Assembly (NCBI GenBank): GCA_032622095.1
Contig: CP136062.1
Coordinates: 13,791,710 to 13,855,709, forward strand
Reading direction: 5' to 3'
From: Siphonodentalium dalli
Taxonomy: Eukaryota; Mollusca; Scaphopoda; Gadilida; Siphonodentaliidae
DNA length: 64,000 nt
This document shows, piece by piece, positions 34,701 through 63,399 of this stretch. Every line of letters starts with the position of its first letter. Within the stretch, counting starts at the first letter, position 1. Below the pieces are notes generated by a model. The model made no database searches and was not told the origin of the DNA. It worked only from the letters and a program-made list of their open reading frames with translations. The translations under genes were made by a program, and so were the position numbers.

Positions 34701-37540
34701 TATGATTCTATGTCCCAGGATGTACGATTTTATGTCTCAGGATGTATGATTCTATACCCAGGATGTACGATTCTATGTCTCAGGATGTATGATTCTATGT
34801 CCCAGTATGTACGATTTTATGTCTCAGGATGTAAGATTATATGTCCCAGGATGTACGATTCTATGTCTCAGGATGTACGATTCTATGTCTAAGGATGTAC
34901 GATTCTATGTCCCAGTATGTACGATTCTATGTCTCAGGATGTACGATTCTATTTCCCAGGATGTATGATTCTATGTCTCAGGATGTACGATTCTATGTCT
35001 CAGGATGTACGATTCTATGTCCCATGATGTACGATTCAATGTCTCAGGATGTACGATTCTATGTTTCAGGATGTACGATTATATTTCCCATGATGTACGA
35101 TTCTATGTCTCAGGATGTACGATTATATGTCTCAGGATGTACGATTCTATGTCCCATGATGTACGATTCAATCTCTCAGGATGTACGATTCTATGTTTCA
35201 GGATGTACGATTCTATGTCTCAGGATGTACGATTCTATGACTCAGGATCTACGATTCTATGTCTCAGGATGTATGATTCTATGACTCAGGATGTACGATT
35301 CTATGTCTCAGGATGTATGATTCTATGACTCAGGATGTATGATTCTATGTCTCAGGATGTACGATTATATGTCTCAGGATGTAAGATTGTATGTCCCAGG
35401 ATGTACGATTCTATGTCTCAGGATGTATGATTTTATGTCTCAGGATGTATGATTCTATACCCAGGATGTACGATTCTATGTCTCAGGATGTATGATTCTA
35501 TGTCCCAGTATGTACGATTTTATGTCTCAGGATGTAAGATTATATGTCCCAGGATGTACGATTCTATGTCTCAGGATGTATGATTTTATGTCTCAGGATG
35601 TATGATTTTATGTCTCAGGATGTACGATTCTATGTCCCAGGATGTACGATTCTATGTCTCAGGATGTATGATTTTATGTCTCAGGATGTAAGATTGTATG
35701 TCTCAGGATGTACGATTCTATGTCCCAGGATGTACGATTCTATGTCCCAGGATGTATGATTCTATGTATCATGATGTAAGATTATATGTCCCAGGATGTA
35801 CGATTCTATGTCCCAGAATGTACGATTCTATGTCCCAGGATGTACGATCCTATGACTCAGGATGTATGATTCTATGTCTCAGGATGTACGATTCTATGTC
35901 TCAGGATGTACGATTCTATGTCTCAGGATGTGCGATTCTATTTCCCAGGATGTACGGTTATATGTCCCAGGATGTATGATTCTGTCTCAGGATGTAAGAT
36001 TGTATGTCCCAGGATGTACGATTCTATGCCTCAGGATGTACGATTCTATGTCCCAGGATGTATGATTCTATGTCTCAGGATGTACGATTCTATGTCCCAG
36101 GATGTACGATTCTATGTCTCAGGATGTACGATTCTATGACTCAGGATGTACGATTCTATGTCCAAGGATGTATGATTCTATGTCTCAGGATGTACGATTC
36201 TATGTCCCAGGATGTATGATTCTATGTCCCAGGATGTATGATTCTATGTCCCAGTATGTATGATTCTATGTCCCTGGATGTATGATTCTATGTCCCAGGA
36301 TGTAATATTCTATGTCTCAGGATGTACGATTATACGTCCCAGGATGTATGATGCTATGTCCCAGGATGTAAGGTTGTATGTCCCAGGATGTAAGATTCTA
36401 TGTCTCAGGATGTATGATTCTATGTCTCAGGATGTACGATTCTATGTCTCAGGATGTAAGATTCTATGTCTCAGGATGTATGATTCTATGTCTCATGATG
36501 TACGATTCTATGTCTCAGGATGTACGGTTCAATGTCTCAGGATGTACGATTCTATGGCTCAGTATGTACGATTCTATGTCTCAGGATGTACGATTCTATG
36601 TCTCAGGATGTACGATTCTATGTCTCAGGATGTACGATTCTATGTCCCAGGATGTATGATTCTATGTCACAGGATGTATGATTCTATGTCTCAGGATGTA
36701 TGATTCTATGTCTCAGGATGTACGATTCTATGTCTCAGGATGTATGATTCTATGTCTCAGGATGTATGATTCTATGTCTCGGGATGTACGATTCTATGTC
36801 CCAGGATGTATGATTCTATGTCACAGGATGTATGATTCTATGTCTCAGGATGTATGATTCTATGTCTCAGGATGTACGATTCTATGTCTCAGGATGTACG
36901 ATTCTATGTCTCAGGATGTACGATTCTATGTCTCAGGATGTATGAATCATGTTACAGGATGTATGATTCTATGACTCAGGATGTATAATTCTATGACTCA
37001 GGATATACGATTCTATGTCTCAGGATGTACGATTCTATGTCTCAGGATGTACGATTCTATGGCTCAGTATGTACGATTCTATGTCTCAGGTTGTACGATT
37101 CTATGTCTCAGGATGTACGATTCTATGTCTCAGGATGTACGATTCTATGTCTCAGGATGTACGATTATATGTCTCAGGATGTATGATTATATGTCCCAGG
37201 ATGTACGATTCCATGTCTCAGGATGTACGATTCTATGTCCCAGGATGTATGATTCTATTTCCCAGGATGTACGATTCTATGTCCCAGGATGTATGATTAT
37301 ATGTACCAGGACGTATGATTCCATGTCTCAGGATGTACGGTTCAATGTCTCAGGATGTAAGATTATATGTCCCAGGATGTATGATTCTATGTCTCAGGAT
37401 GTACGATTTTATGTCTCAGGATGTATGATTCTATTTCCCAGGATGTACGATTCTATGTCTCAGGATGTATGATTCTATGACTCATGATGTATGATTCTAT
37501 GTCTCATGATGTACGATTATATGTCTCAGGATGTATCATT
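34701..37540 (+). repeat. 22-bp satellite array, segment II
   Basis: About 129 monomers between AT-rich blocks 1 and 2. Much of the order follows segment I: 35,200-36,480 tracks 3,540-4,690, and 36,480-37,440 tracks 11,290-11,900 and 32,050-32,990. The GAATCATGTT landmark monomer is near 36,943. A monomer lacking two bases near 35,985 (GATTCTGTCTC) is a private change. Confidence 0.93.
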
Positions 37541-39160
37541 ACGAGTCGAAACGGAATGTGGCATATGCTTAGTATACCACAAGTCAGCAATCTGCAACTG
37601 ATGATGACCCTATCAAAAACTTTGGCACCTTTTCCAAAACATCAACCTATTAGTAACATATAAAACCAAATTCCACCTTTGGCATAAATAAATTATCTTT
37701 AGGGGGTACGTTCTAAAACATTTTCAAAATTATTTTAAACCGCTCCAGAAATATACTCTCCATTTCTAAATTTGGTTATGAGAACAGGGAACAAATTGTC
37801 TGCAAAAAATTGGGACCCTGACCATAAAAACATGCCTATTCATTAATATGCTTAGCAGACAACCTCCCCTTTCTCATACCTAAAAACCTTTTAATGAATG
37901 TAATCCCCTTATACCAAACCATATACCACTTAAGAGATATATATGCATGTAGAACATTAATTGATGTCTACAAATAAACAATGTTTATAATGTACAATGG
38001 CTATATGTTATGTATGTCTGTCTGTCTGTTTGTTTAGCTGTCTGTCCACCACCACGATAATTTATGTGCATTAGTATGCCTGGTTTGAACGCTGGCACCC
38101 AGCATAGTACTACTAACTATAGGGTACTAGAACATAATATTATTAAGGGGTATAGGACAATACCTTGGAATATTCACATAATTGCCTTAATTATTATAAG
38201 GAGATACTATATTAAATGCCAAATCCTATATTAATTTTAACGGGCATAGTTATAAGCACAAATAAAATGGACTTAATCATGTTAAAGGATATTTAAGAAA
38301 AGGAACTTTACAATTATATAATACTATAATTTAATATGTATATACATGTATAAGATACACAAGAGATTGTTATAAATATAATCCATTAAAACATTCATAC
38401 CCCTTTTATGGCATACCCCTATAACGGCATAACCTTTATAGCAATACTGTGCTGCTAGAAACCAAAAACTATATTATACACTATTATAATATTAATATAA
38501 TAATTATATTTATTCATAATTATATAGGGTTTGATACTCACTGCACATAATTGATAATCAACGGAATCTCATTAAGAAGAATTTGAGGGAAGTTTTATTT
38601 TAATAAAATATAAAACATATATGTATAAATGTAATTCAAAACAATTCGATCAAAAAGCAGACTATAGACCCATTATTATCAGACTATACTTTGTGTATAA
38701 ACTAAAACCAGATACCTCATTATTGTACCTACAACATATTATTGACTTTACTTTTTACCTATATAGGCTTGTTGACCAACTTTGGTTATAATTTAAAGGG
38801 ATGCATACTAACAATTTTTTATAATTACCTACGACAATTTTAAGTTAACTTTTTATAAATGCATTCAATTATAACCATAGTGAATACTATGATTGTTACA
38901 TAACAATAGTAACAAATAATTCAACCTAAATACAATATTGATAATTAAAAGATATTTGACTGACTTCCAGGTTGCTCTATAATTTTATCTTTTACTTCTG
39001 CCTTTTTACTTTTGACTGGCTAAAACTGCTCCTACGACAGACTATCTGTTCATCATTAGCATAATACATCTTCCGGTGAGCAAGGCAGGGTACCTTTTTT
39101 GTGGGCCCAGGACACTGCGGCATCCCCCATTGCTCACTATGAATGTGGGCACCACAAAAC
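37541..39160. repeat. 1.62-kb AT-rich interspersed block, copy 2
   Basis: 1,620 bp, nearly identical to copy 1. Differences seen include GCAATCTGC near 37,589, AGAAGAATTT near 38,578, CTTTTTACC near 38,755, CTACGACAG near 39,034 and CCACAAAAC at the right end. The left satellite flank reads TATCATT instead of TATGATT. Distance from the start of copy 1 is 4,461 bp, so block plus satellite has amplified as one higher-order unit. Confidence 0.95.
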
Positions 39161-42100
39161 TATGATTCTATGTCCCAGGATGTACGATTTTATGTCTCAG
39201 GATGTATGATTCTATACCCAGGATGTACGATTCTATGTCTCAGGATGTATGATTCTATGTCCCAGGATGTACGATTTTATGTCTCAGGATGTAAGATTAT
39301 ATGTCCCAGGATGTACGATTCTATGTCTCAGGATGTACGATTCTATGTCTCAGGATGTACGATTCTATGTCCCAGGATGTACGATTCTATGTCTCAGGAT
39401 GTACGATTCTATTTCCCAGGATGTATGATTCTATGTCTCAGGATGTACGATTCTATGTCTCAGGATGTACGATTCTATGTCCCATGATGTACGATTCAAT
39501 GTCTCAGGATGTACGATACTATGTTTCAGGATGTACGATTATATTTCCCAGGATGTACGATTCTATGTCTCAGGATGTACGATTATATGTCTCAGGATGT
39601 ACGATTCTATGTCCCATGATGTACGATTCAATGTCTCAGGATGTACGATTCTATGTTTCAGAATGTACGATTCTATGTCTCAGGATGTACGATTCTATGA
39701 CTCAGGATCTACGATTCTATGTCTCAGGATGTATGATTCTATGACTCAGGATATACGATTCTATGTCTCAGGATGTATGATTCTATGACTCAGGATGTAT
39801 GATTCTATGTCTCAGGATGTACGATTATATGTCTCAGGATGTAAGATTGTATGTCTCAGGATGTACGATTCTATGTCCCAGGATGTACGATTCTATGTCT
39901 CAGGATGTATGTTTTTATGTCTCAGGATGTAAGATTGTATGTCTCAGGATGTACGATTCTATGTCCCAGGATGTACGATTCTATGTCCCAGGATGTATGA
40001 CTCTATGTCTCAGGATGTAAGATTATATGTCCCGGGATGTACGATTCTATGTCCCAGGATGTACGATTCTATGACTCAGGATGTATGATTCTATGTCTCA
40101 GGATGTACGATTCTATGTCTCAGGATGTACGATTCTATGTCTCAGGATGTGCGATTCTATTTCCCAGGATGTACGATTATATGTCCCAGGATGTATGATT
40201 CTATGTCTCAGGATGTAAGATTGTATGTCCCAGGATGTACGATTCTATGTCTCAGGATGTACGATTATATGTCCCAGGATGTATGATTCTATGTCTCAGG
40301 ATGTACGATTCTATGTCCCAGGATGTACGATTCTATGACTCAGGATGTACGATTCTATGACTCAGGATGTACGATTCCATGTTCCAGGATGTATTATTCT
40401 ATGTCCCAGGATGTATGATTCTATGTCCCAGTATGTATGATTCTATGTCCCAGGATGTATGATTCTATGTCCCAGGATGTAATATTCTATGTCTCAGGAT
40501 GTACGATTATACGTCCCAGGATGTATGATTCTATGTCCCAGGATGTAATATTCTATGTCTCAGGATGTACGATTATACGTCCCAGGATGTATGATGCTAT
40601 GTACCAGGATGTAAGATTGTATGTCCCAGGATGTAAGATTCTATGTCTCAGGATGTATGATTCTATGTCTCAGGATGTACGATTCTATGTTTCAGGATGT
40701 AAGATTCTGTCTCAGGATGTATGATTCTATGTCTCAGGATGTATGATTCTATGTATCAGGATGTATGATTCTATGTCTCAGGATGTACGATTCTATGACT
40801 CAGGATGTTCGATTCCTTGTCCAAGGATGTATGATTCTATGTCTCAGGATGTATGCTTCTATGTCTCAGGATGTATGATTCTATGTCTCAGGATGTATGA
40901 TGCTATGTCTCAGGATGTATGCTTCTATGTCTCAGGATGTACGATTCTATGTCCCAGGATGTATGATTCTATGTTCCAGGATGTATGATTCTATGGCTCA
41001 GTATGTACGATTCTATGACTCAGTATGTACGATTCTATGTCCCAGGATGTACGATTCTATGTCTCAGGATGTACGATTATATGTCCCAGGATGTATGATT
41101 CTATGTCACAGGATGTAAGATTCTATGTCTCAGGATGTATGATTCTATGTCTCAGGATGTACGATTCTATGTCTCAGGATGTATGATTCTATTCTCAGGA
41201 TGTATGATTCTATGTCTCATGATGTACGATTCTATGTCTCAGGATGTACGGTTCAATGTCTCAGGATGTACGATTCTATGGCTCAGTATGTACGATTCTA
41301 TGTCTCAGGATGTACGATTCTATGTCTCAGGATGTACGATTCTATGTCTCAGTATGTACGATTCTATGTCCCAGGATGTATGATTCTATGTCACAGGATG
41401 TATGATTCTATGTCTCAGGATGTGTGATTCTATGTCTCAGGATGTACGATTCTATGTCCCAGGATGTATGATTCTATGTCACAGGATGTATGATTCTATG
41501 TCTCAGGATGTATGATTCTATGTCTCAGGATGTACGATTCTATGTCTCAGGATGTACGATTCTATGTCTCAGGATGTACGATTCTATGTCTCATGATGTA
41601 TGAATCATGTTTCAGGATGTATGATTCTATGACTCAGGATGTATAATTCTATGACTCAGGATATACGATTCTATGTCTCAGGATGTACGATTCTATGTCT
41701 CAGGATGTACGATTCTATGGCTCAGTAATGTACGATTCTATGTCTCAGGATGTACGATTCTATGTCTCAGGATGTACGATTCTATGTCTCAGGATGTACG
41801 ATTATATGTCTCAGGATGTATGATTATATGTCCCAGGATGTACGATTCCATGTCTCAGGATGTACGATTCTATGTCCCAGGATGTATGATTCTATTTCCC
41901 AGGATGTACGATTCTATGTCCCAGGATGTATGATTCTATGTCCCAGGATGTATGATTCCATGTCTCAGGATGTACGGTTCAATGTCTCAGGATGTAAGAT
42001 TATATGTCCCAGGATGTGTGATTCTATGTCTCAGGATGTACGATTTTATGTCTCAGGATGTATGATTCTATTTCCCAGGATGTACGATTCTATGTCTCAG

Positions 42101-42925
42101 TATGTACGATTCTATGTCCCAGGATGTATGATTCTATGTCACAGGATGTATGATTCTATGTCTCAGGATGTGTGATTCTATGTCTCAGGATGTACGATTC
42201 TATGTCCCAGGATGTATGATTCTATGTCACAGGATGTATGATTCTATGTCTCAGGATGTATGATTCTATGTCTCAGGATGTACGATTCTATGTCTCAGGA
42301 TGTACGATTCTATGTCTCAGGATGTACGATTCTATGTCTCATGATGTATGAATCATGTTTCAGGATGTATGATTCTATGACTCAGGATGTATAATTCTAT
42401 GACTCAGGATATACGATTATATGTCTCAGGATGTACGATTCTATGTCTCAGGATGTACGATTCTATGGCTCAGTAATGTACGATTCTATGTCTCAGGATG
42501 TACGATTCTATGTCTCAGGATGTACGATTCTATGTCTCAGGATGTACGATTATATGTCTCAGGATGTATGATTATATGTCCCAGGATGTACGATTCCATG
42601 TCTCAGGATGTACGATTCTATGTCCCAGGATGTATGATTCTATTTCCCAGGATGTACGATTCTATGTCCCAGGATGTATGATTCTATGTCCCAGAATGTA
42701 TGATTCCATGTCTCAGGATGTACGGTTCAATGTCTCAGGATGTAAGATTATATGTCCCAGGATGTATGATTCTATGTCTCAGGATGTACGATTTTATGTC
42801 TCAGGATGTATGATTCTATTTCCCAGGATGTACGATTCTATGTCTCAGGATGTATGATTCTATGACTCAGGATGTATGATTCTATGTCTCATGATGTACG
42901 ATTCTATGTCTCAGGATGTATGATT
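39161..42925 (+). repeat. 22-bp satellite array, segment III
   Basis: About 171 monomers between blocks 2 and 3. It is colinear with segment II over much of its length but longer, mainly because of a 748-bp internal tandem duplication. A duplicated two-monomer stretch with GTAATATTC near 40,485 and 40,550 is another local expansion. Two-base deletions near 40,708 and 41,191 change monomer length. Confidence 0.93.
41343..42838 (+). repeat. 748-bp tandem duplication (two copies, joint at 42,090/42,091)
   Basis: The variant order at 41,343-42,090 repeats at 42,091-42,838 with a constant offset of 748 bp (34 x 22). Both copies contain an unusual GGCTCAGTAATG join (near 41,719 and 42,467), where the other higher-order copies have GGCTCAGTATG followed by a GGTTGTACG monomer. 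Both also contain the GAATCATGTTTC landmark. The shared rare join supports direct duplication rather than chance similarity. Confidence 0.88.
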
Positions 42926-44545
42926 ACGAGTCGAAACGGAATGTGGCATATGCTTAGTATACCACAAGTCAGCAATCTGCAACTGATGAAGACCCTATCA
43001 AAAACTTTGGCACCTTTTCCAAAACATCAACCTATTAGTAACATATAAAACCAAATTCCACCTTTGGCATAAATAAATTATCTTTAGGGGGTACGTTCTA
43101 AAACATTTTCAAAATTATTTTAAACCGCTCCAGAAATATACTCTCCATTTCTAAATTTGGTTATGAGAACAGGGAACAAATTGTCTGCAAAAAATTGGGA
43201 CCCTGACCATAAAAACATGCCTATTCATTAATATGCTTAGCAGACAACCTCCCCTTTCTCATACCTAAAAACCTTTTAATGAATGTAATCCCCTTATACC
43301 AAACCATATACCACTTAAGAGATATATATGCATGTAGAACATTAATTGATGTCTACAAATAAACAATGTTTATAATGTACAATGGCTATATGTTATGTAT
43401 GTCTGTCTGTCTGTTTGTTTAGCTGTCTGTCCACCACCACGATAATTTATGTGCATTAGTATGCCTGGTTTGAACGCTGGCACCCAGCATAGTACTACTA
43501 ACTATAGGGTACTAGAACATAATATTATTAAGGGGTATAGGACAATACCTTGGAATATTCACATAATTGCCTTAATTATTATAAGGAGATACTATATTAA
43601 ATGCCAAATCCTATATTAATTTTAACGGGCATAGTTATAAGCACAAATAAAATGGACTTAATCATGTTAAAGGATATTTAAGAAAAGGAACTTTACAATT
43701 ATATAATACTATAATTTAATATGTATATACATGTATAAGATACACAAGAGATTGTTATAAATATAATCCATTAAAACATTCATACCCCTTTTATGGCATA
43801 CCCCTATAACGGCATAACCTTTATAGCAATACTGTGCTGCTAGAAACCAAAAACTATATTATACACTATTATAATATTAATATAATAATTAGATTTATTC
43901 ATAATTATATAGGGTTTGATACTCACTGCACATAATTGATAATCAACGGAATCTCATTAAGAAGGATTTGAGGGAAGTTTTATTTTAATAAAATATAAAA
44001 CATATATGTATAAATGTAATTCAAAACAATTCGATCAAAAAGCAGACTATAGACCCATTATTATCAGACTATACTTTGTGTATAAACTAAAACCAGATAC
44101 CTCATTATTGTACCTACAACATATTATTGACTTTACTTTTGACCTATATAGGCTTGTTGACCAACTTTGGTTATAATTTAAAGGGATGCACACTAATAAT
44201 TTTTTATAATTACCTACGACAATTTTAAGTTAACTTTTTATAAATGCATTCAATTATAACCATAGTGAATACTATGATTGTTACATAACAATAGTAACAA
44301 ATAATTCAACCTAAATACAATATTGATAATTAAAAGATATTTGACTGACTTCCAGGTTGCTCTATAATTTTATCTTTTACTTCTGCCTTTTTACTTTTGA
44401 CTGGCTAAAACTGCTCCTACGGCAGACTATCTGTTCATCATTAGCATAATACAGCTTCCGGTGAGCAAGGCAGGGTACCTTTTTTGTGGGCCCAGGACAC
44501 TGCGGCATCCCCCATTGCTCACTATGAATGTGGGCACCATAAAAC
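42926..44545. repeat. 1.62-kb AT-rich interspersed block, copy 3
   Basis: 1,620 bp, nearly identical to the other two copies. Private changes seen: GATGAAGACC near 42,988, AATTAGATTT near 43,888, CACACTAATAAT near 44,190 and ACAGCTTCC near 44,451. Its start is 5,385 bp after copy 2. Beyond it the array changes character and the 351-bp element appears. The three copies lie in the same orientation and no further copy occurs in the window. Confidence 0.95.
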
Positions 44546-47500
44546 TATGATTCTATGTCCCAGGATGTACGATTTGATGTCTCAGGATGTATGATTCTAT
44601 ACCCAGGATGTACGATTCTATGTCTCAGGATGTAAGATTATATGTCCCAGGATGTACGATTCTATGTCTCAGGATGTACGATTCTATGTCTCAGGATGTA
44701 CGATTCTATGTCCCAGGATGTACGATTCTATGTCTCAGGATGTACGATTCTATTTCCCAGGATGTATGATTCTATGTCTCAGGATGTACGATTCTATGTC
44801 TCAGGATGTACGATTCTATGTCCCTTGATGTACGATTCAATGTCTCAGGATGTACGATTCTATGTTTCAGGATGTACGATTATATTTCCCAGGATGTACG
44901 ATTCTATGTCTCAGGATGTACGACTATATGTCTCAGGATGTGCGATTCTATGTCCCATGATGTACGATTCAATGTCTCAGGATGTACGATTCTATGTTTC
45001 AGGATGTACGATTCTAATTCTCAGGATGTACGATTCTATGACTCAGGATCTACGATTCTGTCTCAGGATGTATGATTCTATGACTCAGGATGTACGATTC
45101 TATGTCTCAGGATGTATGATTCTATGACCCAGGATGTATGATTCTATGTCTCAGGATGTACGATTATATGTCTGAGGATGTAAGATTGTATGTCTCAGGA
45201 TGTACGATTCTATGTCCCAGGATGTACGATTCTATGTCTCAGGATGTATGATTTTATGTCTCAGGATGTAAGATTGTATGTCTCAGGATGTACGATTCTA
45301 TGTCCCATGAAGTACGATTCTATGTCCCAGGATGTATGATTCTATGTCTCAGAAAGTAAGATTATATGTACCAGGATGTACGATTCTATGTCCCAGGATG
45401 TACGATTCTATGTCCCAGGATGTACGATTCTATGACTCAGGATGTATGATTCTATGTCTCAGGATGTACGATTCTATGTCTCAGGATGTATGATTCTATG
45501 ACTCAGGATGTATGATTCTATGTCTCACGATGTACGATTCTATGTCTCAGGATGTACGATTCTATGTCTCAGTATGTGCGATTCTATTTCCCAGGATGTA
45601 CGATTATATGTCCCAGGATGTATGATTCTATGTCTCAGGATGTAAGATTGTATGTCCCAGGATGTACGATTCTATGTCTCAGGATGTACGATTCTATGTC
45701 CCAGGATGTATGATTCTATGTCTCAGGATGTACGATTCTATGTCTCAGGATGTAAGATTGTATGTCTCAGGATGTACGATTCTATGTCCCAGGATGTATG
45801 ATTCTATGTCCCAGGATGTATGATTCTATGTCTCAGGATGTAAGATTATATGTCCCAGGATGTACGATTCTATGTCCCAGGATGTAAGATTCTATTTCCC
45901 AGGATGTACGATTATATGTCCCAGGATGTACGATTCTATGTCTCAGGATGTACCCAGATGTACGATTCTATGTCTCAGGATGTACGATTCTATGTCCCAG
46001 GATGTATGATTCTATGTCCCAGGATGTATGATTCTATGTCTCAGGATGTAAGATTATATGTCCCAGGATGTACGATTCTATGTCCCAGGATGTACGATTC
46101 TATTTCCCAGGATGTACGATTATATGTCCCAGGATGTACGATTCTATGTCCCAGGATGTACGATTCTATGTCCCAGGATGTACGATTCTATGTCCCAGGA
46201 TGTATGATTCTATGTCCCAGGATGTATGATTCTATGTCTCAGGATGTAAGGTTATATGTCCCAGGATGTACGATTCTATGTCCCAGGGTGTACGATTCTA
46301 TTTCCCAGGATGTACGATTCTATGTCCCAGGATGTACGATTATATGTCCCAGGATGTACGATTGTATGTCTCAGTATGTACGATTGTATGTCCCAGGATG
46401 TACGATTATATGTCCCAGGATGTACGATTGTATGTCTCAGGATGTACGATTGTATGTCCCAGGATGTACGATTCTATGTCCCTGGATGTACGATCATATG
46501 TCCCAGGATGTACGATTCTATGTCTCATGATATATGATTCTATGTCTCAGGATGTACGATTGTATGTCTCAGGATGTACGATTATATGTCTCAGGATGTA
46601 CGATTCTATGTCTCAGGATGTACGATTCTATGTCTCAGGATGTACGATTCTATGTCCCAGGATGTACGATTCTATGTCCCAGGATGTGTGTTTCTATTTC
46701 CCAGGACGTATGATTCTATGTCTCAGGATGTATGAATCTATGTCTCAGGATGTATGATTCTATGACTCAGGATGTACGATTCTATGTCTCAGGATGTATG
46801 ATTCTATGACTCATGATGTATGATTCTATGTCTCAGGATGTATAATTCTATGCCTCAGGATGTATGATTCTATGACTCATGATGTATGATTCCATAACTC
46901 AGGATGTATGATTCTATGTCCCAGGATGTACGATTCTATGTCTCAGGATGTATGATTCTATGTCTCAGGGTGTATGATTCTATGTCTCAGGATGTATTAT
47001 TCTATGTTCCAGGATGTATGATTCTATGACTCAGGATGTATCATACTATGTCCCAGGATGTATGATTCTATGACTCAGGATGTATGATTCTATGTCACAG
47101 GATGTATGATTCTATTTCCCAGGATGTATGATACTATGTCAAAGGATGTCTGATTCTATGTCTCAGGATGTTCGATTATATATCTCAGGGTGTATGGTTC
47201 TATGTCCCAGGATGTACGATTCTATCTATGTCTCAGGATGTATGATTCTATGTCCCAGGATGTATGATTCTATGACTCAGGATGTATGATTCTCTGTCCC
47301 AGGACGTATGCTTCTATGTCACATGATGTATGATACTATGTCTCAGGTTGTATGATAATATGTCTCAAGATGTACGATTCTATGGCACAGGATGTATGAT
47401 TCTATAACTCAGGATGTATGATTCTATGTCCCATGATGTACGATTCTATGTCTCAGGATGTATGATTCTATGTCTCAGGATGTATGATTCTATTTCTCAG

Positions 47501-47627
47501 GATGTATGATTATATGTCACATGATGTATGATTCTATGTCTCAGGAAGTATGATTCTATGTCTCAGGATGTACGATTCTATGTCTCAGGATGTACGATTC
47601 TCTGTCTCAGGATGTATGATTCTATGT
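44546..47627 (+). repeat. 22-bp satellite array, segment IV
   Basis: Transition from the AT-rich-block type of array to the type carrying the 351-bp element. 44,546-45,300 follows segments II and III; from about 45,420 the order is that of the later units. The marker TACCCAGATG (a shortened monomer) is at 45,951 and the marker GTTTCTATTTCCCAGGACG at 46,690. From about 46,790 to 47,620 the monomers are unusually degenerate, including GTATCATACTATG, CAAAGGATGTCTG and a 26-bp monomer with CTATCTATG near 47,222. Confidence 0.92.
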
Positions 47628-47978
47628 CGAAAAATGGCAATAACTCCGCCAAAATGACATCAAAATCGCAGGTGTGCAAGTTCCCATGATGGTTGACATC
47701 TGTGCCAAGGTTAAAACAAATTGACTGGAAAATGACAGAATACAATCTCAGACAAAAGATGCGTCCCAAAATGTACGATTCTATGTTGAAAAAGGGCAAT
47801 AACTCCGCCGAAATGTGTCCGATTGAACTCAAAATGGCAGGTGCGCAAGTTCCCATGCTGGTTCAACCTGGTTGATATGTGTACCAAGTTTAAACAAATT
47901 TAACCAGAAAATGACTGAATACAGGCGGCGAACTGACGCACACACGGACAAGGGTCATTACTATAGTCCCCCGAATGT
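47628..47978 (+). mobile_element. 351-bp dimeric interspersed element, copy 1
   Basis: Non-satellite sequence with two homologous halves. Half A (47,628-47,744) and half B (47,787-47,923) share GGCAATAACTCCGCC, a GCAAGTTCCCATG core, AAAATGAC and GAATACA. Between them, at 47,764-47,785, sits a single 22-mer that equals a common satellite monomer at 20 of 22 bases. A tail follows (47,924-47,978) with GACGCACACACGGAC and CTATAGTCCCCCG. From memory this style resembles non-autonomous dispersed repeats of bivalves; the family is not established. No protein is encoded. A private change is GAAATGTGTCC near 47,812. Confidence 0.8.
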
Positions 47979-50508
47979 ATGTTTCTATTTCCCAGGACGT
48001 ATGATTCTATGTCTCAGGATGTATGAATCTATGTCTCAGGATGTATGATTCTATGACTCAGGATGTACGATTCTATGTCTCAGGATGTATGATTCTATGT
48101 CTCAGGATGTATGATTCTATGACTCAGGATGTACGATTCTATGTCTCAGGATGTATGATTCTATGACCCAGGATGTATGATTCTATGTCTCAGGATGTAC
48201 GATTATATGTCTGAGGATGTAAGATTGTATGTCTCAGGATGTACGATTCTATGTCCCAGGATGTACGATTCTATGTCCCAGGATGTACGATTCTATGACT
48301 CAGGATGTATGATTCTATGTCTCAGGATGTACGATTCTATGTCTCAGGATGTATGATTCTATGACTCAGGATGTATGATTCTATGTCTCACGATGTACGA
48401 TTCTATGTCTCAGGATGTACGATTCTATGTCTCAGTATGTGCGATTCTATTTCCCAGGATGTACGATTATATGTCCCAGGATGTATGATTCTATGTCTCA
48501 GGATGTAAGATTGTATGTCCCAGGATGTACGATTCTATGTCTCAGGATGTACGATTCTATGTCCCAGGATGTATGATTCTATGTCTCAGGATGTACGATT
48601 CTATGTCTCAGGATGTAAGATTGTATGTCTCAGGATGTAAGATTGTATGTCTCAGGATGTACGATTCTATGTCCCAGGATGTATGATTCTATGTCTCAGG
48701 ATGTAAGATTCTATGTCCCAGGATGTACGATTCTATGTCCCAGGATGTACGATTCTATGTCCCAGGATGTAAGATTCTATTTCCCAGGATGTACGATTCT
48801 ATGTCTCAGGATGTACCCAGATGTACGATTCTATGTCTCAGGATGTACGATTCTATGTCCCAGGATGTATGATTCTATGTCCCAGGATGTATGATTCTAT
48901 GTCTCAGGATGTAAGATTATATGTCCCAGGATGTACGATTCTATGTCCCAGGATGTACGATTCTATTTCCCAGGATGTACGATTATATGTCCCAGGATGT
49001 ACGATTCTATGTCCCAGGATGTACGATTCTATGTCCCAGGATGTACGATTCTATGTCCCAGGATGTATGATTCTATGTCCCAGGATGTATGATTCTATGT
49101 CTCAGGATGTAAGGTTATATGTCCCAGGATGTACGATTCTATGTCCCAGGGTGTACGATTCTATTTCCCAGGATGTACGATTCTATGTCCCAGGATGTAC
49201 GATTATATGTCCCAGGATGTACGATTGTATGTCTCAGTATGGTCGATTGTATGTCCCAGGATGTACGATTATATGTCCCAGGATGTACGATTGTATGTCT
49301 CAGGATGTACGATTGTATGTCCCAGGATGTACGATTCTATGTCCCTGGATGTACGATCATATGTCCCAGGATGTACGATTCTATGTCTCATGATATATGA
49401 TTCTATGTCTCAGGATGTACAATTGTATGTCTCAGGATGTACGATTATATGTCTCAGGATGTACGATTCTATGTCTCAGGATGTACGATTCTATGTCTCA
49501 GGATGTACGATTCTATGTCCCAGGATGTACGATTCTATGTCCCAGGATGTATGTTTCTATTTCCCAGGACGTATGATTCTATGTCTCAGGATGTATGAAT
49601 CTATGTCTCAGGATGTATGATTCTATGACTCAGGATGTACGATTCTATGTCTCAGGATGTATGATTCTATGACTCATGATGTATGATTCTATGTCTCAGG
49701 ATGTATAATTCTATGTCTCAGGATGTATGATTCTATGACTCATGATGTATGATTCCATAACTCAGGATGTATGATTCTATGTCCCAGGATGTACGATTCT
49801 ATGTCTCAGGATGTATGATTCTATGTCTCAGGGTGTATGATTCTATGTCTCAGGATGTATTATTCTATGTTCCAGGATGTATGATTCTATGACTCAGGAT
49901 GTATCATACTATGTCCCAGGATGTATGATTCTATGACTCAGGATGTATGATTCTATGTCACAGGATGTATGATTCTATGTCTCAGGAAGTATGATTCTAT
50001 GTCTCAGGATGTACGATTCTATGTCTCAGGATGTATGAATCTATGTCTCAGGATGTATGATTCTATGACTCAGGATGTACGATTCTATGTCTCAGGATGT
50101 ATGATTCTATGACTCATGATGTATGATTCTATGTCTCAGGATGTATAATTCTATGTCTCAGGATGTATGATTCTATGACTCATGATGTATGATTCCATAA
50201 CTCAGGATGTATGATTCTATGTCCCAGGATGTACGATTCTATGTCTCAGGATGTATGATTCTATGTCTCAGGGTGTATGATTCTATGTCTCAGGATGTAT
50301 TATTCTATGTTCCAGGATGTATGATTCTATGACTCAGGATGTATCATACTATGTCCCAGGATGTATGATTCTATGACTCAGGATGTATGATTATATGTCA
50401 CATGATGTATGATTCTATGTCTCAGGAAGTATGATTCTATGTCTCAGGATGTACGATTCTATGTCTCAGGATGTACGATTCTCTGTCTCAGGATGTATGA
50501 TTCTATGT
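47979..50508 (+). repeat. Satellite segment V (between 351-bp elements 1 and 2)
   Basis: One higher-order unit. It opens with the GTTTCTATTTCCCAGGACG marker at 47,981, has the TACCCAGATG marker at 48,814 and a second GTTTCTATTTCCC marker at 49,553, then a degenerate part leading to the next element. Relative to its neighbours, the degenerate part is shortened and contains a 440-bp (20-monomer) tandem duplication with copies starting near 49,593 and 50,033. Confidence 0.92.
49593..50472 (+). repeat. 440-bp tandem duplication
   Basis: The order from a GTATGAATC monomer at 49,593 repeats at 50,033, and the GGAAGTATG monomer near 49,986 repeats 440 bp later. 440 is exactly 20 x 22. The second copy carries an ACATGATG variant near 50,400 in place of ACAGGATG. 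The right end is approximate. Confidence 0.8.
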
Positions 50509-50859
50509 CGAAAAATGGCAATAACTCCGCCAAAATGACATCAAAATCGCAGGTGTGCAAGTTCCCATGATGGTTGACATCTGTGCCAAGGTTAAAACAA
50601 ATTGACTGGAAAATGACAGAATACAATCTCAGACAAAAGATGCGTCCCAAAATGTACGATTCTATGTTGAAAAAGGGCAATAACTCCGCCGAAATGAGTC
50701 CGATTGAACTCAAAATGGCAGGTGCGCAAGTTCCCATGCTGGTTCAACCTGGTTGATATGTGTACCAAGTTTAAACAAATTTAACCAGAAAATGACTGAA
50801 TACAGGCGGCGAACTGACGCACACACGGACAAGGGTCATTACTATAGTCCCCCGAATGT
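50509..50859 (+). mobile_element. 351-bp dimeric interspersed element, copy 2
   Basis: Same length and structure as copy 1, starting 2,881 bp after it. It carries GAAATGAGTCC in half B, the form shared by copies 2-6. The satellite resumes directly with ATGTATGTTTC at its right end. I saw no private substitution, so it is a fair reference for the family. Confidence 0.8.
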
Positions 50860-53213
50860 ATGTTTCTATTTCCCAGGACGTATGATTCTATGTCTCAGGA
50901 TGTATGAATCTATGTCTCAGGATGTATGATTCTATGACTCAGGATGTACGATTCTATGTCTCAGGATGTATGATTCTATGTCTCAGGATGTATGATTCTA
51001 TGACTCAGGATGTACGATTCTATGTCTCAGGATGTATGATTCTATGACCCAGGATGTATGATTCTATGTCTCAGGATGTACGATTATATGTCTGAGGATG
51101 TAAGATTGTATGTCTCAGGATGTACGATTCTATGTCCCAGGATGTACGATTCTATGTCCCAGGATGTACGATTCTATGACTCAGGATGTATGATTCTATG
51201 TCTCAGGATGTACGATTCTATGTCTCAGGATGTATGATTCTATGACTCAGGATGTATGATTCTATGTCTCACGATGTACGATTCTATGTCTCAGGATGTA
51301 CGATTCTATGTCTCAGTATGTGCGATTCTATTTCCCAGGATGTACGATTATATGTCCCAGGATGTATGATTCTATGTCTCAGGATGTAAGATTGTATGTC
51401 CCAGGATGTACGATTCTATGTCTCAGGATGTACGATTCTATGTCCCAGGATGTATGATTCTATGTCTCAGGATGTACGATTCTATGTCTCAGGATGTAAG
51501 ATTGTATGTCTCAGGATGTACGATTCTATGTCCCAGGATGTATGATTCTATGTCCCAGGATGTATGATTCTATGTCTCAGGATGTAAGATTATATGTCCC
51601 AGGATGTACGATTCTATGTCCCAGGATGTAAGATTCTATTTCCCAGGATGTACGATTATATGTCCCAGGATGTACGATTCTATGTCTCAGGATGTACCCA
51701 GATGTGCGATTCTATGTCTCAGGATGTACGATTCTATGTCCCAGGATGTATGATTCTATGTCCCAGGATGTATGATTCTATGTCTCAGGATGTAAGATTA
51801 TATGTCCCAGGATGTACGATTCTATGTCCCAGGATGTATGATTCTATGTCCCAGGATGTATGATTCTATGTCTCAGGATGTAAGGTTATATGTCCCAGGA
51901 TGTACGATTCTATGTCCCAGGGTGTACGATTCTATTTCCCAGGATGTACGATTCTATGTCCCAGGATGTACGATTATATGTCCCAGGATGTACGATTGTA
52001 TGTCTCAGTATGTACGATTGTATGTCCCAGGATGTACGATTATATGTCCCAGGATGTACGATTCTATGTCCCTGGATGTACGATCATATGTCCCAGGATG
52101 TACGATTCTATGTCTCATGATATATGATTATATGTCTCAGGATGTACAATTGTATGTCTCAGGATGTACGATTATATGTCTCAGGATGTACGATTCTATG
52201 TCTCAGGATGTACGATTCTATGTCTCAGGATGTACGATTCTATGTCCCAGGATGTACGATTCTATGTCCCAGGATGTATGTTTCTATTTCCCAGGACGTA
52301 AGATTCTATGTCTCAGGATGTATGAATCTATGTCTCAGGATGTATGATTCTATGACTCAGGATGTACGATTCTATGTCTCAGGATGTATGATTCTATGAC
52401 TCATGATGTATGATTCTATGTCTCAGGATGTATAATTCTATGTCTCAGGATGTATGATTCTATGACTCATGATGTATGATTCCATAACTCAGGATGTATG
52501 ATTCTATGTCCCAGGATGTACGATTCTATGTCTCAGGATGTATGATTCTATGTCTCAGGGTGTATGATTCTATGTCTCAGGATGTATTATTCTATGTTCC
52601 AGGATGTATGATTCTATGACTCAGGATGTATAATACTATGTCCCAGGATGTATGATTCTATGACTCAGGATGTATGATTCTATGTCACAGGATGTATGAT
52701 TCTATTTCCCAGGATGTATGATACTATGTCAAAGGATGTCTGATTCTATGTCTCAGGATGTTCGATTATATATCTCAGGGTGTATGGTTCTATGTCCCAG
52801 GATGTACGATTCTATGTCTCAGGATGTATGATTCTATGTCCCAGGATGTATGATTCTATGACTCAGGATGTATGATTCTCTGTCCCAGGACGTATGCTTC
52901 TATGTCACATGATGTATGATACTATGTCTCAGGTTGTATGATACTATGTCTCAAGATGTACGATTCTATGGCACAGGATGTATGATTCTATAACTCAGGA
53001 TGTATGATTCTATGTCCCATGATGTACGATTCTATGTCTCAGGATGTATGATTCTATGTCTCAGGATGTATGATTCTATTTCCCAGGATGTATGATTATA
53101 TGTCACATGATGTATGATTCTATGTCTCAGGAAGTATGATTCTATGTCTCAGGATGTACGATTCTATGTCTCAGGATGTACGATTCTCTGTCTCAGGATG
53201 TATGATTCTATGT
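50860..53213 (+). repeat. Satellite segment VI (between elements 2 and 3)
   Basis: One higher-order unit with markers at 50,862 (GTTTCTATTTCCC), 51,695 (TACCCAGATG) and 52,280 (second GTTTCTATTTCCC). It lacks several monomers present in other units near 51,830 and 52,050, giving the shortest inter-element satellite of the first five. Its degenerate part (52,380-53,200) closely follows 46,790-47,620 but lacks the CTATCTATG insertion. Confidence 0.92.
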
Positions 53214-53564
53214 CGAAAAATGGCAATAACTCCGCCAAAATGACATCAAAATCGCAGGTGTGCAAGTTCCCATGATGGTTGACATCTGTGCCAAGGTTAA
53301 AACAAATTGACTGGAAAATGACAGAATACAATCTCAGACAAAAGATGCGTCCCAAAATGTACGATTCTATGTTGAAAAAGGGCAATAACTCCGCCGAAAT
53401 GAGTCCGATTGAACTCAAAATGGCAGGTGCGCAAGTTCCCATGCTGGTTCAACCTGGTTGATATGTGTACCAAGTTTAAACAAATTTAACCAGAAAATGA
53501 CTGAATATAGGCGGCGAACTGACGCACACACGGACAAGGGTCATTACTATAGTCCCCCGAATGT
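53214..53564 (+). mobile_element. 351-bp dimeric interspersed element, copy 3
   Basis: Starts 2,705 bp after copy 2. The one private substitution seen is GAATATAGGCGG in the tail near 53,508. Both halves and the central 22-mer are intact. Confidence 0.8.
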
Positions 53565-56247
53565 ATGTTTCTATTTCCCAGGACGTATGATTCTATGTCT
53601 CAGGATGTATGAATCTATGTCTCAGGATGTATGATTCTATGACTCAGGATGTACGATTCTATGTCTCAGGATGTATGATTCTATGTCTCAGGATGTATGA
53701 TTCTATGACTCAGGATGTACGATTCTATGTCTCAGGATGTATGATTCTATGACCCAGGATGTATGATTCTATGTCTCAGGATGTACGATTATATGTCTGA
53801 GGATGTAAGATTGTATGTCTCAGGATGTACGATTCTATGTCCCAGGATGTACGATTCTATGTCTCAGGATGTATGATTTTATGTCTCAGGATGTAAGATT
53901 GTATGTCTCAGGATGTACGATTCTATGTCCCATGATGTACGATTCTATGTCCCAGGATGTATGATTCTATGTCTCAGAAAGTAAGATTATATGTACCAGG
54001 ATGTACGATTCTAGATCCCAGGATGTACGATTCTATGTCCCAGGATGTACGATTCTATGACTCAGGATGTATGATTCTATGTCTCAGGATGTACGATTCT
54101 ATGTCTCAGGATGTATGATTCTATGACTCAGGATGTATGATTCTATGTCTCACGATGTACGATTCTATGTCTCAGGATGTACGATTCTATGTCTCAGAAT
54201 GTGCGATTCTATTTCCCAGGATGTACGATTATATGTCCCAGGATGTATGATTCTATGTCTCAGGATGTAAGATTGTATGTCCCAGGATGTACGATTCTAT
54301 GTCTCAGGATGTACGATTCTATGTCCCAGGATGTATGATTCTATGTCTCAGGATGTACGATTCTATGTCTCAGGATGTAAGATTGTATGTCTCAGGATGT
54401 ACGATTCTATGTCCCAGGATGTATGATTCTATGTCCCAGGATGTATGATTCTATGTCTCAGGATGTAAGATTATATGTCCCAGGATGTACGATTCTATGT
54501 CCCAGGATGTAAGATTCTATTTCCCAGGATGTACGATTATATGTCCCAGGATGTACGATTCTATGTCTCAGGATGTACCCAGATGTACGATTCTATGTCT
54601 CAGGATGTACGATTCTATGTCCCAGGATGTATGATTCTATGTCCCAGGATGTATGATTCTATGTCTCAGGATGTAAGATTATATGTCCCAGGATGTACGA
54701 TTCTATGTCCCAGGATGTACGATTCTATTTCCCAGGATGTACGATTATATGTCCCAGGATGTACGATTCTATGTCCCAGGATGTACGATTCTATGTCCCA
54801 GGATGTACGATTCTATGTCCCAGGATGTATGATTCTATGTCCCAGGATGTATGATTCTATGTCTCAGGATGTAAGGTTATATGTCCCAGGATGTACGATT
54901 CTATGTCCCAGGGTGTACGATTCTATTTCCCAGGATGTACGATTCTATGTCCCAGGATGTACGATTATATGTCCCAGGATGTACGATTGTATGTCTCAGT
55001 ATGTACGATTGTATGTCCCAGGATGTACGATTATATGTCCCAGGATGTACGATTGTATGTCTCAGGATGTACGATTGTATGTCCCAGGATGTACGATTCT
55101 ATGTCCCTGGATGTACGATCATATGTCCCAGGATGTACGATTCTATGTCTCATGATATATGATTCTATGTCTCAGGATGTACGATTGTATGTCTCAGGAT
55201 GTACGATTATATGTCTCAGGATGTACGATTCTATGTCTCAGGATGTACGATTCTATTCTCAGGATGTACGATTCTATGTCCCAGGATGTACGATTCTGTG
55301 TCCCAGGATGTATGTTTCTATTTCCCAGGACGTATGATTCTATGTCTCAGGATGTATGAATCTATGTCTCAGGATGTATGATTCTATGACTCAGGATGTA
55401 CGATTCTATGTCTCAGGATGTATGATTCTATGACTCATGATGTATGATTCTATGTCCCAGGATGTATAATTCTATGTCTCAGGATGTATGATTCTATGAC
55501 TCATGATGTATGATTCCATAACTCAGGATGTATGATTCTATGTCCCAGGATGTACGATTCTATGTCTCAGGATGTATGATTCTATGTCTCAGGGTGTATG
55601 ATTTTATGTCTCAGGATGTATTATTCTATGTTCCAGGATGTATGATTCTATGACTCAGGATGTATCATACTATGTCCCAGGATGTATGATTCTATGACTC
55701 AGGATGTATGATTCTATGTCACAGGATGTATGATTCTATTTCCCAGGCTGTATGATACTATGTCAAAGGATGTATGATTCTATGTCTCAGGATGTTCGAT
55801 TATATATCTCAGGGTGTATGATTCTATGTCCCAGGATGTACGATTCTATGTCTCAGGATGTATGATTCTATGTCCCAGGATGTATGATTCTATGACTCAG
55901 GATGTATGATTCTCTGTCCCAGGACGTATGCTTCTATGTCACATGATGTATGATACTATGTCTCAGGTTGTATGATACTATGTCTCAAGATGTACGATTC
56001 TATGGCACAGGATGTATGATTCTATGACTCAGGATGTATGATTCTATGTCCCATGATGTACGATTCTATGTCTCAGGATGTATGATTCTATGTCTCAGGA
56101 TGTATGATTCTATTTCCCAGGATGTATGATTATATGTCACATGATGTATGATTCTATGTCTCAGGAAGTATGATTCTATGTCTCAGGATGTACGATTCTA
56201 TGTCTCAGGATGTACGATTCTCTGTCTCAGGATGTATGATTCTATGT
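53565..56247 (+). repeat. Satellite segment VII (between elements 3 and 4)
   Basis: One higher-order unit with markers at 53,567, 54,576 (TACCCAGATG) and 55,314. It includes the monomers with TCTCAGAAAGTAAG near 53,973 and TCTAGATCCC near 54,012. A monomer near 55,256 has lost two bases (TCTATTCTCAGG). Its degenerate part is at about 55,430-56,240. Confidence 0.92.
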
Positions 56248-56598
56248 CGAAAAATGGCAATAACTCCGCCAAAATGACATCAAAATCGCAGGTGTGCAAG
56301 TTCCCATGATGGTTGACATCTGTGCCAAGGTTAAAACAAATTGACTGGAAAATGACAGAATACAATCTCAGACAAAAGATGCGTCCCAAAATGTACGATT
56401 CTATGTTGAAAAAGGGCAATAACTCCGCCGAAATGAGTCCGATTGAACTCAAAATGGCAGGTGCGCAAGTTCCCATGCTGGTTCAACCTGGTTGATATGT
56501 GTACCAAGTTTAAACAAATTTAACCAGAAAATGACTGAATACAAGCGGCGAACTGACGCACACACGGACAAGGGTCATTACTATAGTCCCCCGAATGT
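56248..56598 (+). mobile_element. 351-bp dimeric interspersed element, copy 4
   Basis: Starts 3,034 bp after copy 3, the longest regular spacing. The private substitution seen is GAATACAAGCGG in the tail near 56,545. Otherwise identical in structure to copies 2 and 3. Confidence 0.8.
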
Positions 56599-58990
56599 AT
56601 GTTTCTATTTCCCAGGACGTATGATTCTATGTCTCAGGATGTATGAATCTATGTCTCAGGATGTATGATTCTATGACTCAGGATGTACGATTCTATGTCT
56701 CAGGATGTATGATTCTATGTCTCAGGATGTATGATTCTATGACTCAGGATGTACGATTCTATGTCTCAGGATGTATGATTCTATGACCCAGGATGTATGA
56801 TTCTATGTCTCAGGATGTACGATTATATGTCTGAGGATGTAAGATTGTATGTCTCAGGATGTACGATTCTATGTCCCAGGATGTACGATTCTATGTCTCA
56901 GGATGTATGATTTAATGTCTCAGGATGTAAGATTGTATGTCTCAGGATGTACGATTCTATGTCCCATGATGTACGATTCTATGTCCCAGGATGTATGATT
57001 CTATGTCTCAGAAAGTAAGATTATATGTACCAGGATGTACGATTCTATGTCCCAGGATGTACGATTCTATGTCCCAGGATGTACGATTCTATGACTCAGG
57101 ATGTATGATTCTATGTCTCAGGATGTACGATTCTATGTCTCAGGATGTATGATTCTATGACTCAGGATGTATGATTCTATGTCTCACGATGTACGATTCT
57201 ATGTCTCAGGATGTACGATTCTATGTCTCAGTATGTGCGATTCTATTTCCCAGGATGTACGATTATATGTCCCAGGATGTATGATTCTATGTCTCAGGAT
57301 GTAAGATTGTATGTCCCAGGATGTACGATTCTATGTCTCAGGATGTACGATTCTATGTCCCAGGATGTATGATTCTATGTCTCAGGATGTACGATTCTAT
57401 GTCTCAGGATGTAAGATTGTATGTCTCAGGATGTACGATTCTATGTCCCAGGATGTATGATTCTATGTCCCAGGATGTATGATTCTATGTCTCAGGATGT
57501 AAGATTATATGTCCCAGGATGTACGATTCTATGTCCCAGGATGTAAGATTCTATTTCCCAGGATGTACGATTATATGTCCCAGGATGTACGATTCTATGT
57601 ATCAGGATGTACCCAGATGTACGATTCTATGTCCCAGGATGTACGATTCTATGTCCCAGGAGGTATGATTCTATGTCTCAGGATGTAAGATTATATGTCC
57701 CAGGATGTACGATTCTATGTCCCAGGAAGTACGATTCTATTTCCCAGGATGTACGATTATATGTCCCAGGATGTACGATTCTATGTCCCAGGATGTACGA
57801 TTCTATGCCCCAGGATGTACGATTCTATGTCCCAGGATGTATGATTCTATGTCCCAGGATGTATGATTCTATGTCTCAGGATGTAAGGTTATATGTCCCA
57901 GGATGTACGATTCTATGTCCCAGGGTGTACGATTCTATTTCCCAGGATGTACGATTCTATGTCCCAGGATGTACGATTATATGTCTCAGTATGTACGATG
58001 GTATGTCCCAGGATGTACGATTATATGTCCCAGGATGTACGATTGTATGTCTCAGGATGTACGATTGTATGTCCCAGGATGTACGATTCTATGTCCCTGG
58101 ATGTACGATCATATGTCCCAGGATGTACGATTCTATGTCTCATGATATATGATTCTATGTCTCAGGATGTACGATTCTATGTCCCAGGATGTATGTTTCT
58201 ATTTCCCAGGACGTATGATTCTATGTCTCAGGATGTATGAATCTATGTCTCAGGATGTATGATTCTATGACTCAGGATGTACGATTCTATGTCTCAGGAT
58301 GTATGATTCTATGACTCATGATGTATGATTCTATGTCCCAGGATGTATAATTCTATGTCTCAGGATGTATGATTCTATGACTCATGATGTATGATTCCAT
58401 AACTCAGGATGTATGATTCTATGTCCCAGGATGTACGATTCTCAGGATGTATGATTCTATGTCACAGGATGTATGATTCTAATTCCCAGGATGTATGATA
58501 CTATGTCAAAGGATGTATGATTCTATGTCTCAGGATGTTCGATTATATATCTCAGGGTGTATGATTCTATGTCCCAGGATGTACGATTCTATGTCTCAGG
58601 ATGTATGATTCTATGTCCCAGGATGTATGATTCTATGACTCAGGATGTATGATTCTCTGTCCCAGGACGTATGCTTCTATGTCACATGCTGTATGATACT
58701 ATGTCTCAGGTTGTATGATACTATGTCTCAAGATGTACGATTCTATGGCACAGGATGTATGATTCTATGACTCAGGATGTATGATTCTATGTCCCATGAT
58801 GTACGATTCTATGTCTCAGGATGTATGATTCTATGTCTCAGGATGTATGATTCTATTTCCCAGGATGTATGATTATATGTCACATGATGTATGATTCTAT
58901 GTCTCAGGAAGTATGATTCTATGTCTCAGGATGTACGATTCTATGTCTCAGGATGTACGATTCTCTGTCTCAGGATGTATGATTCTATGT
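56599..58990 (+). repeat. Satellite segment VIII (between elements 4 and 5)
   Basis: One higher-order unit with markers at 56,601, 57,610 (TACCCAGATG, here after a TGTATC variant) and 58,195. Private features are GGAGGTATG near 57,661 and a deletion near 58,441 (GATTCTCAGG) that joins two distant monomers and shortens the degenerate part; the marker-to-element distance is about 140 bp less than in other units. 62,465-63,399 shares several of its variants, such as ATTCTAATTCCC and CACATGCTG. Confidence 0.92.
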
Positions 58991-59341
58991 CGAAAAATGG
59001 CAATAACTCCGCCAAAATGACATCAAAATCGCAGGTGTGCAAGTTCCCATGATGGTTGACATCTGTGCCAAGGTTAAAACAAATTGACTGGAAAATGACA
59101 GAATACAATCTCAGACAAAAGATGCGTCCCAAAATGTACGATTCTATGTTGAAAAAGGGCAATAACTCCGCCGAAATGAGTCCGATTGAACTCAAAATGG
59201 CAGGTGCGCAAGTTCCCATGCTGGTTCAACCTGGTTGATATGTGTACCAAGTTTAAACAAATTTAACCAGAAAATGACTGAATACAGGCGGCGAACTGAC
59301 GCACACACGGACAAGGGTCATTACTATAGTCCCCCGAATGT
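58991..59341 (+). mobile_element. 351-bp dimeric interspersed element, copy 5
   Basis: Starts 2,743 bp after copy 4. No private substitution was seen. It is followed by satellite beginning ATGTATGTTTC, like copies 1-4. Confidence 0.8.
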
Positions 59342-62300: not shown

Positions 62301-63399
62301 CCAGGATGTACGATTGTATGTCTCAGGATGTACGATTGTATGTCCCAGGATGTACGATTCTATGTCCCTGGATGTACGATCATATGTCCCAGGATGTACG
62401 ATTCTATGTCTCATGATATATGATTCTATGTCTCAGGATGTACGATTCTATGTCCCAGGATGTATGTTTCTATTTCCCAGGACGTATGATTCTATGTCTC
62501 AGGATGTATGAATCTATGTCTCAGGATGTATGATTCTATGACTCAGGATGTACGATTCTATGTCTCAGGATGTATGATTCTATGACTCATGATGTATGAT
62601 TCTATGTCCCAGGATGTATAATTCTATGTCTCAGGATGTATGATTCTATGACTCATGATGTATGATTCCATAACTCAGGATGTATGATTCTATGTCCCAG
62701 GATGTACGATTCTATGTCTCAGGATGTATGATTCTATGTCTCAGGGTGTATGATTCTATGTCTCAGGATGTATTATTCTATGTTCCAGGATGTATGATTC
62801 TATGACTCAGGATGTATCATACTATGTCCCAGGATGTATGATTCTATGACTCAGGATGTATGATTCTATGTCACAGGATGTATGATTCTAATTCCCAGGA
62901 TGTATGATACTATGTCAAAGGATGTATGATTCTATGTCTCAGGATGTTCGATTATATATCTCAGGGTGTATGATTCTATGTCCCAGGATGTACGATTCTA
63001 TGTCTCAGGATGTATGATTCTATGTCCCAGGATGTATGATTCTATGACTCAGGATGTATGATTCTCTGTCCCAGGACGTATGCTTCTATGTCACATGCTG
63101 TATGATACTATGTCTCAGGTTGTATGATACTATGTCTCAAGATGTACGATTCTATGGCACAGGATGTATGATTCTATGACTCAGGATGTATGATTCTATG
63201 TCCCATGATGTACGATTCTATGTCTCAGGATGTATGATTCTATGTCTCAGGATGTATGATTCTATTTCCCAGGATGTATGATTATATGTCACATGATGTA
63301 TGATTCTATGTCTCAGGAAGTATGATTCTATGTCTCAGGATGTACGATTCTATGTCTCAGGATGTACGATTCTCTGTCTCAGGATGTATGATTCTATGT
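59342..63399 (+). repeat. Satellite segment IX, last before the array edge
   Basis: Contains two higher-order units but only one element, at its right end. TACCCAG markers are at 60,353 and 61,859 (offset 1,506), and GTTTCTATTTCCC markers at 59,344, 61,092 and 62,465. At 61,092 the order runs straight from the middle of one unit into the start of the next, skipping the degenerate part and the element. The second unit also lacks eight monomers (176 bp) present near 59,620-59,800. Monomers next to 63,399 are the last of the array in this window. Confidence 0.92.

Follow-up and report, generated by a model that had tools for sequence, protein, structure and literature searches.

The window analysed here (the whole stretch of 64,000 nucleotides, C2:13791710-13855709, on contig C2 of a genome of 2.23 Gb in 9 contigs) consists largely of a 22-bp satellite, which we consider, with a probability of roughly 0.9, to have grown inside one copy of a dispersed transposable element from a single 22-bp segment at the junction between two of its internal repeat units (cores). 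The element itself has, in its sequence, the architecture of a non-autonomous Helentron (HINE), and the repeats appear molluscan in type. The array and the element pieces are placed as follows (window positions, unless prefixed by a contig).

1..63399, plus strand: 22-bp satellite array, part in the window (TRF, monomer segmentation, bounds)
C2:13779282-13855108: whole 22-bp array, 75.8 kb, extending leftward beyond the window
47627..47977, minus strand: HINE piece copy 1 (coreA - 22-mer - coreB - terminus)
47764..47785, plus strand: core-junction 22-mer TCCCAAAATGTACGATTCTATG, AA variant, copy 1
50645..50666, plus strand: core-junction 22-mer, copy 2
53350..53371, plus strand: core-junction 22-mer, copy 3
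56384..56405, plus strand: core-junction 22-mer, copy 4
59127..59148, plus strand: core-junction 22-mer, copy 5
63399..63751, minus strand: HINE piece copy 6, the array's right boundary, then unique intron DNA
63536..63557, plus strand: core-junction 22-mer, copy 6, original element end

The array has the consensus monomer TCYCAGGATGTAYGATTCTATG and an estimated ~3,150 monomers (inserts subtracted; the array was read apart from about 7-10 kb left of the window). Monomer segmentation yielded 2,588 fuzzy matches within the window, at a mean divergence of 7.3% from their own consensus, and three inserts of ~1.6 kb, as well as five pieces of the element, interrupt the array there. The three copies of the non-satellite insert (~1,623 bp; 33085-34707, 37546-39167 and 42931-44553) are spaced by 4,461 and 5,385 bp, and probably represent one insertion that was copied along with its surroundings. 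Large block duplication within the array is seen directly: the 12.3-kb block 1-12321 recurs at 20761-33079 (offset 20,760 bp, identity 99.6%), and is a recent large-scale duplication. Assembly of long simple arrays is difficult, and a 12.3-kb block at this identity could itself be an assembly duplication; nevertheless, the six element copies bear distinct differences at distinct spacings, distinct variants occur along the array and element sequence is present at both edges, which makes an assembly artefact extremely improbable as an explanation of the array. The secondary structure of a monomer dimer showed nothing beyond chance (z +1.2), and a literature text search did not find the monomer sequence.

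The core-junction 22-mer and its core context (46 bp) are identical at six positions (47758, 50639, 53344, 56378, 59121 and 63530; 0 expected from shuffles), in agreement with the initial annotation, which had placed the 22-mer at 47,764-47,785 and in all six copies of a dispersed 351-bp element. Its further observations also held: AA for GG is the sole difference from TCCCAGGATGTACGATTCTATG, halves A and B are homologous (72-73% identity across ~140-160 bp), and satellite-type sequence precedes half A (GATTCTATGTCG, the last array monomer). The 351-bp sequence is indeed dispersed, but it is not a whole element, being the last two core units and one terminus of a longer one, whose 5'->3' direction is the minus strand in the window. 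Copy 1 re-enters the satellite at ...CCGAATGT, followed across the joint by ATGTTTCTATTTCCC. The AA-for-GG 22-mer is a variant of local occurrence: the majority of the dispersed copies in other places carry GG, exactly the satellite monomer, and among the loci read the AA form occurs outside the window in the contig C7 copy only.

A genome search with the 351-bp piece returned 2,799 first-look candidates, of which the 40 that were scored are distributed over all nine contigs (the dispersed ones mostly 75-88% identical). Full-length copies measure 526-835 bp and contain two to four ~169-bp core units. Core/22-mer/core junctions number 590 genome-wide (all chromosomes, <=2 mismatches; reversed-pattern control 0), and the commonest form of their 22-mers is exactly the satellite monomer. 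In the 63 dispersed loci read, the core-to-core joint is ACAAAAGATGCG-TCCCAGGATGTACGATTCTATG-TYGAAAAAGGGCAATAACTCC, with a core spacing of ~169 bp; monomers keep this spacing, one per core junction, in 61 of the 63, with 1-3 monomers each (five at the C6 locus) and mostly <=2 mismatches from the satellite monomer. The 63 include duplicates, loci counted a second time (L061, L073, L083) and some chosen by exact junction pattern; the independent evidence consists of the genome-wide junction count and of the loci (L008-L030) picked up through similarity to the core. Copies far from the satellite that still hold the central 22-mer, for which the initial annotation had suggested searching, are thus present in both counts. 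As the cores differ on average by ~14% from their consensus, the element is old.

This age bears on an alternative that the same annotation had entertained, namely capture of a monomer by the element; in this reading the satellite came first, and the monomer taken up then spread with the element. HINE-type elements are known carriers of captured tandem repeats (PMC12628747, PMC7492417), yet here 590 dispersed junctions stand against tandem arrays at three loci, the arrays found are inside element copies, and every core junction has its own 22-mer at the same place, so that core and 22-mer are duplicated together. The 22-mer was therefore inherited within an old dispersed element and its capture is rejected as highly improbable; we retain the reading in which the element supplied the monomer.

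Read on the other strand from the satellite, the element is ordered TTGTCCCCCGAC-ATTCC-GTCGGAGGAC-TATAGTAATGACCC, a GTCC-like microsatellite, the cores, and GTCGGGGGACA-TTTT-GGTCAGCGACC-TTTT. As these correspond to the defining parts of oyster HINEs (5' subTIR, complementary inverted repeat, microsatellite, central repeats, 3' subTIR and palindrome; PMC7492417), the element is, on sequence criteria, a non-autonomous Helentron of the 'pearl'-like type. The 5' subTIR with its complementary inverted repeat is TTGTCCCCCGAC-ATTCC-GTCGGAGGAC; the full 5' terminus pattern was recovered in 23 of the 63 diverged loci (none in shuffles) and in 568 copies genome-wide (<=3 mismatches; control 0), folds as a hairpin (z -3.0), and is degenerate in the window's own element copy. 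A GTCCGTCCGTCC-like stretch, comparable to the GTCC-type microsatellite in the left module of several Cg_HINE (PMC7492417), lies past the 5' terminus in L008, L016, L074 and L071, and TRF found GACG/GGAC arrays in L015, L067 and L068. The two to four cores, at ~169-bp spacing, constitute the satellite-like central tandem units. The 3' subTIR, the complement of its 5' counterpart, and the palindrome, GTCGGGGGACA - TTTT - GGTCAGCGACC-TTTT, were found in 14 of the 63 loci (shuffles 0) and are the weakest of the features present, the palindrome stem being short (4 bp); both ends passed their patterns in one copy in 3 rows only, and a single locus accounts for two of these. HINE elements insert without target-site duplication, at T/T or A/T; in the 17 copies examined, whose ends are imprecise, left flanks end in AAT and right flanks begin with AA. 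Matches to the Helitron replication-initiator domain (Helitron_like_N, PF14214) are plentiful, numbering at least 150 in the genome, some within open frames over 1,600 aa.

The C2 array sits within a single copy of this element, in an apparent intron, and both of its edges were read directly. On the left the array borders on the end of a core, reading ...GAATACAAGTTCAGACAAAGAATCATCCCAGGATGTACG (GAATACAAGTTCAGACAAAGAATCATCCCAGG...), where element sequence had been predicted beforehand from the dispersed junction and was then found; its right edge is the start of coreA (GATTCTATGTCGAAAAATGGCAATAACTCC... / GTCGAAAAATGGCAATAACTCC), after which follow the AA 22-mer, coreB and the terminus, and then unique DNA. 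The left edge of the array lacks the full core and head that had been predicted, and the C2 element copy is therefore truncated on that side, as is the C7 copy. Homology of the array monomer to an internal stretch of a dispersed element, together with array/element junctions, is what characterizes a TE-derived satellite, and both are present here. The flanking features are:

63752..63822, unstranded: right flanking intron DNA, common only to C7:818627-818997
63823..64000, minus strand: putative coding exon running past the window, ...DDGSAVFSSTLGKRGYYYQPKSYFQYGTTSPQGSPRQNRFFVGTMDNQGTSNRAYDNAWD (C7 comparison, in-frame splice sites)
near C2:13778.9-13779.1 kb (L085), minus strand: second putative exon (consensus splice sites)

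An unexpanded paralog of the locus is directly observed on contig C7. There, L007 (C7:817477-820780) comprises C2's left flank, one monomer, coreA, the AA 22-mer, coreB, the terminus and C2's right flank (...CATTCTAAGAATACAAGTTCAGACAGAGAATCATCCCAGGATGTATGATTCTATGTCGAAAAATGG...), with one monomer where C2 has ~3,150. Each flank query (short and unique, long queries being swamped by unrelated high-copy repeats) matched, short repeats aside, only one further place of the genome at full length, on C7. In ungapped comparison the two left flanks are 91.9% identical and the right flanks, with the exon, 95.2%; moreover, the C2 coreA and coreB are nearest to the C7 coreA and coreB (94%) and branch together with them in the core tree. 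The C7 coreA carries two deletions, which, together with the general commonness of contraction in arrays, would suit a history in which several 22-mers existed before the C2/C7 duplication and were reduced to one on C7. This weighs on the reading that we favour, as a single perfect copy would also be left by deletion between monomers and C7 could in principle be a contracted array. Such a history, however, requires an expansion and a complete contraction in place of one expansion, and the dispersed junctions read are single-copy (the coreA/coreB junction of the same element included), so that we judge it quite improbable. The seed, seen directly in its place, is one monomer rather than a pre-existing array, and the dispersed junctions, both edges and the single-monomer C7 locus largely bear out the model of the initial annotation, in which a short internal repeat of a dispersed element grew into the satellite.

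Exact tandem dimers were found by genome search at three loci only, C2 (66 matches), C6 (1) and C8 (5), and a junction-based pattern (<=3 mismatches, which strongly diverged arrays would escape) again recovered only these. At the C6 locus, two cores enclose four monomers, of which the first is diverged and the other three are identical; the C8 locus has 42 monomers with element sequences on both sides. The cores beside the three arrays belong to different branches of a short-sequence tree with weak resolution, which argues, weakly, for independent expansions. The arrays would not be independent if one dimer-bearing source copy had transposed to C2, C6 and C8 and expanded separately, and their common 22-bp unit and register would agree with this. 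On the other hand, the shared register is partly ascertainment (the search was aimed at the 22-bp unit), the C2 insertion site is common to the single-monomer C7 locus, and the cores are, within the weak support of such short sequences, on different branches; a common source is thus unlikely, and growth of the C2 array from its own single junction 22-mer remains our preferred reading. We regard as rather doubtful, if conceivable, the proposal that the 22-bp junction is a sequence-encoded duplication hotspot producing the same unit and register independently in C6, C8 and C2, in which case the cause could be, for example, some property of the junction in replication or recombination instead of chance slippage.

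The 22-bp junction is not the sole duplicating segment, a role ruled out by a 20-bp tandem triplet in a core: in L091 and L092 (C5:24.28 and 24.60 Mb, which look like mutual duplicates), the piece ATTCCCATGCTGGTTGACAG inside the HINE core is present in three perfect tandem copies.

We propose that an old HINE copy, truncated on one side, would have lodged in an intron, that the locus would have been duplicated between C7 and C2 (the expansion falling after or during this duplication), and that the junction 22-bp segment of the C2 copy would then have been tandemly duplicated. Repeated unequal exchange and larger block duplications could have raised the number of monomers from 1 to ~3,150, and later duplications may have taken the element's end (coreA - 22-mer - coreB - terminus) into the array, giving six copies. 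Going by the paralogs, on which the timing rests, the expansion would be later than the C2/C7 split. The first dimer may have arisen by slippage or by microhomology-mediated duplication; a direct repeat of only 3 bp (GTC...GTC, at a distance of 22 bp) flanks the monomer, and the same consensus contains, at 10-60 bp spacing, 125 other 3-bp, 39 4-bp, 10 5-bp and 2 6-bp repeats. Being ordinary among such short repeats, the GTC microhomology was rejected as a sufficient cause: it permits slippage and leaves the choice of unit unexplained. All five inner element pieces meet array DNA past ...CCGAATGT, where the tail GAATGT and the monomer GGATGT|ATG have ATGT in common, and these joints, together with the 12.3-kb repeat, would fit unequal exchange and block duplication over the array edge.

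The first copies of a satellite are usually invisible, as arrays erase their own history. The present genome holds ~590 unexpanded junctions, a single-copy sister insertion and arrays of 4, 42 and ~3,150 monomers that are each still framed by element sequence, and the path from seed to satellite becomes directly testable (rate, timing, choice of unit). Transposon-derived satellites are already known, and the C2 case is unusually well resolved, since the seed, the sister locus and intermediates all occur in one genome. It shows that not the whole repeat unit of a Helentron alone, but also a small sub-segment of it, is able to become a satellite.

There are good descriptions of satellites that originated from internal parts of transposons, including Helentrons, or from their short internal arrays (PMC12628747, PMC7492417, PMC4079207). 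Among the closest known systems are Cg_HINE of Crassostrea gigas and the bivalve pearl / MgE / DTC84 elements (PMC7492417), which share with the present element a 5' subTIR and its complement, a GTCC-type microsatellite, central tandem units (~160 bp in pearl), a 3' subTIR, a palindrome, genome-wide dispersal and central repeats related to satellites. In those elements, however, the satellite-related unit is the whole central repeat, whereas here only 22 bp of each unit expand, and the longest array in the C. gigas survey has 29 monomers, compared with ~3,150 of a shorter unit here (PMC7492417). In Tetris / TIR-220 of Drosophila virilis (PMC4079207), transposon-internal repeats likewise seeded arrays that are still element-flanked; that element is a foldback one whose 220-bp unit was already tandem before expansion, in contrast to the single 22-bp copy here, and the passages cited report no single-unit sister locus at the same insertion site, such as C7 provides. 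The expanding unit in the oyster and Drosophila cases is the element's own long repeat (PMC7492417, PMC4079207). The Xenopus MITE of Scalvenzi and Pollet resembles our case, as described in PMC12628747, in carrying one or many satellite units within an otherwise conserved element; short direct repeats are proposed there as the cause of its copy changes. For that MITE, capture of a repeat that already existed is the accepted view, whereas for the present element the data speak against capture.

The C2 satellite appears to have grown inside an intron of a putative protein-coding gene. Putative exons with consensus splice sites lie on the minus strand in both flanks, by which the array is apparently intronic, and the two appear to belong to a paralogous gene pair on C2 and C7, with the array in the intron between them. 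Across the 61 codons of the putative exon compared between C2 and C7, 3 codons differ, with 2 amino-acid changes; neither putative exon had a Pfam match. To the left of the array lies a 1.9-kb repeat (L085:4600-6500, C2:13776299-13778200) with many genome copies at 93-95% identity, which is a younger, unrelated high-copy element. Still further left, ~38 kb from the array and far from the contig end, L035 (C2:13741710-13742209) contains an interstitial (AACCCT)n stretch, a telomere-type motif.
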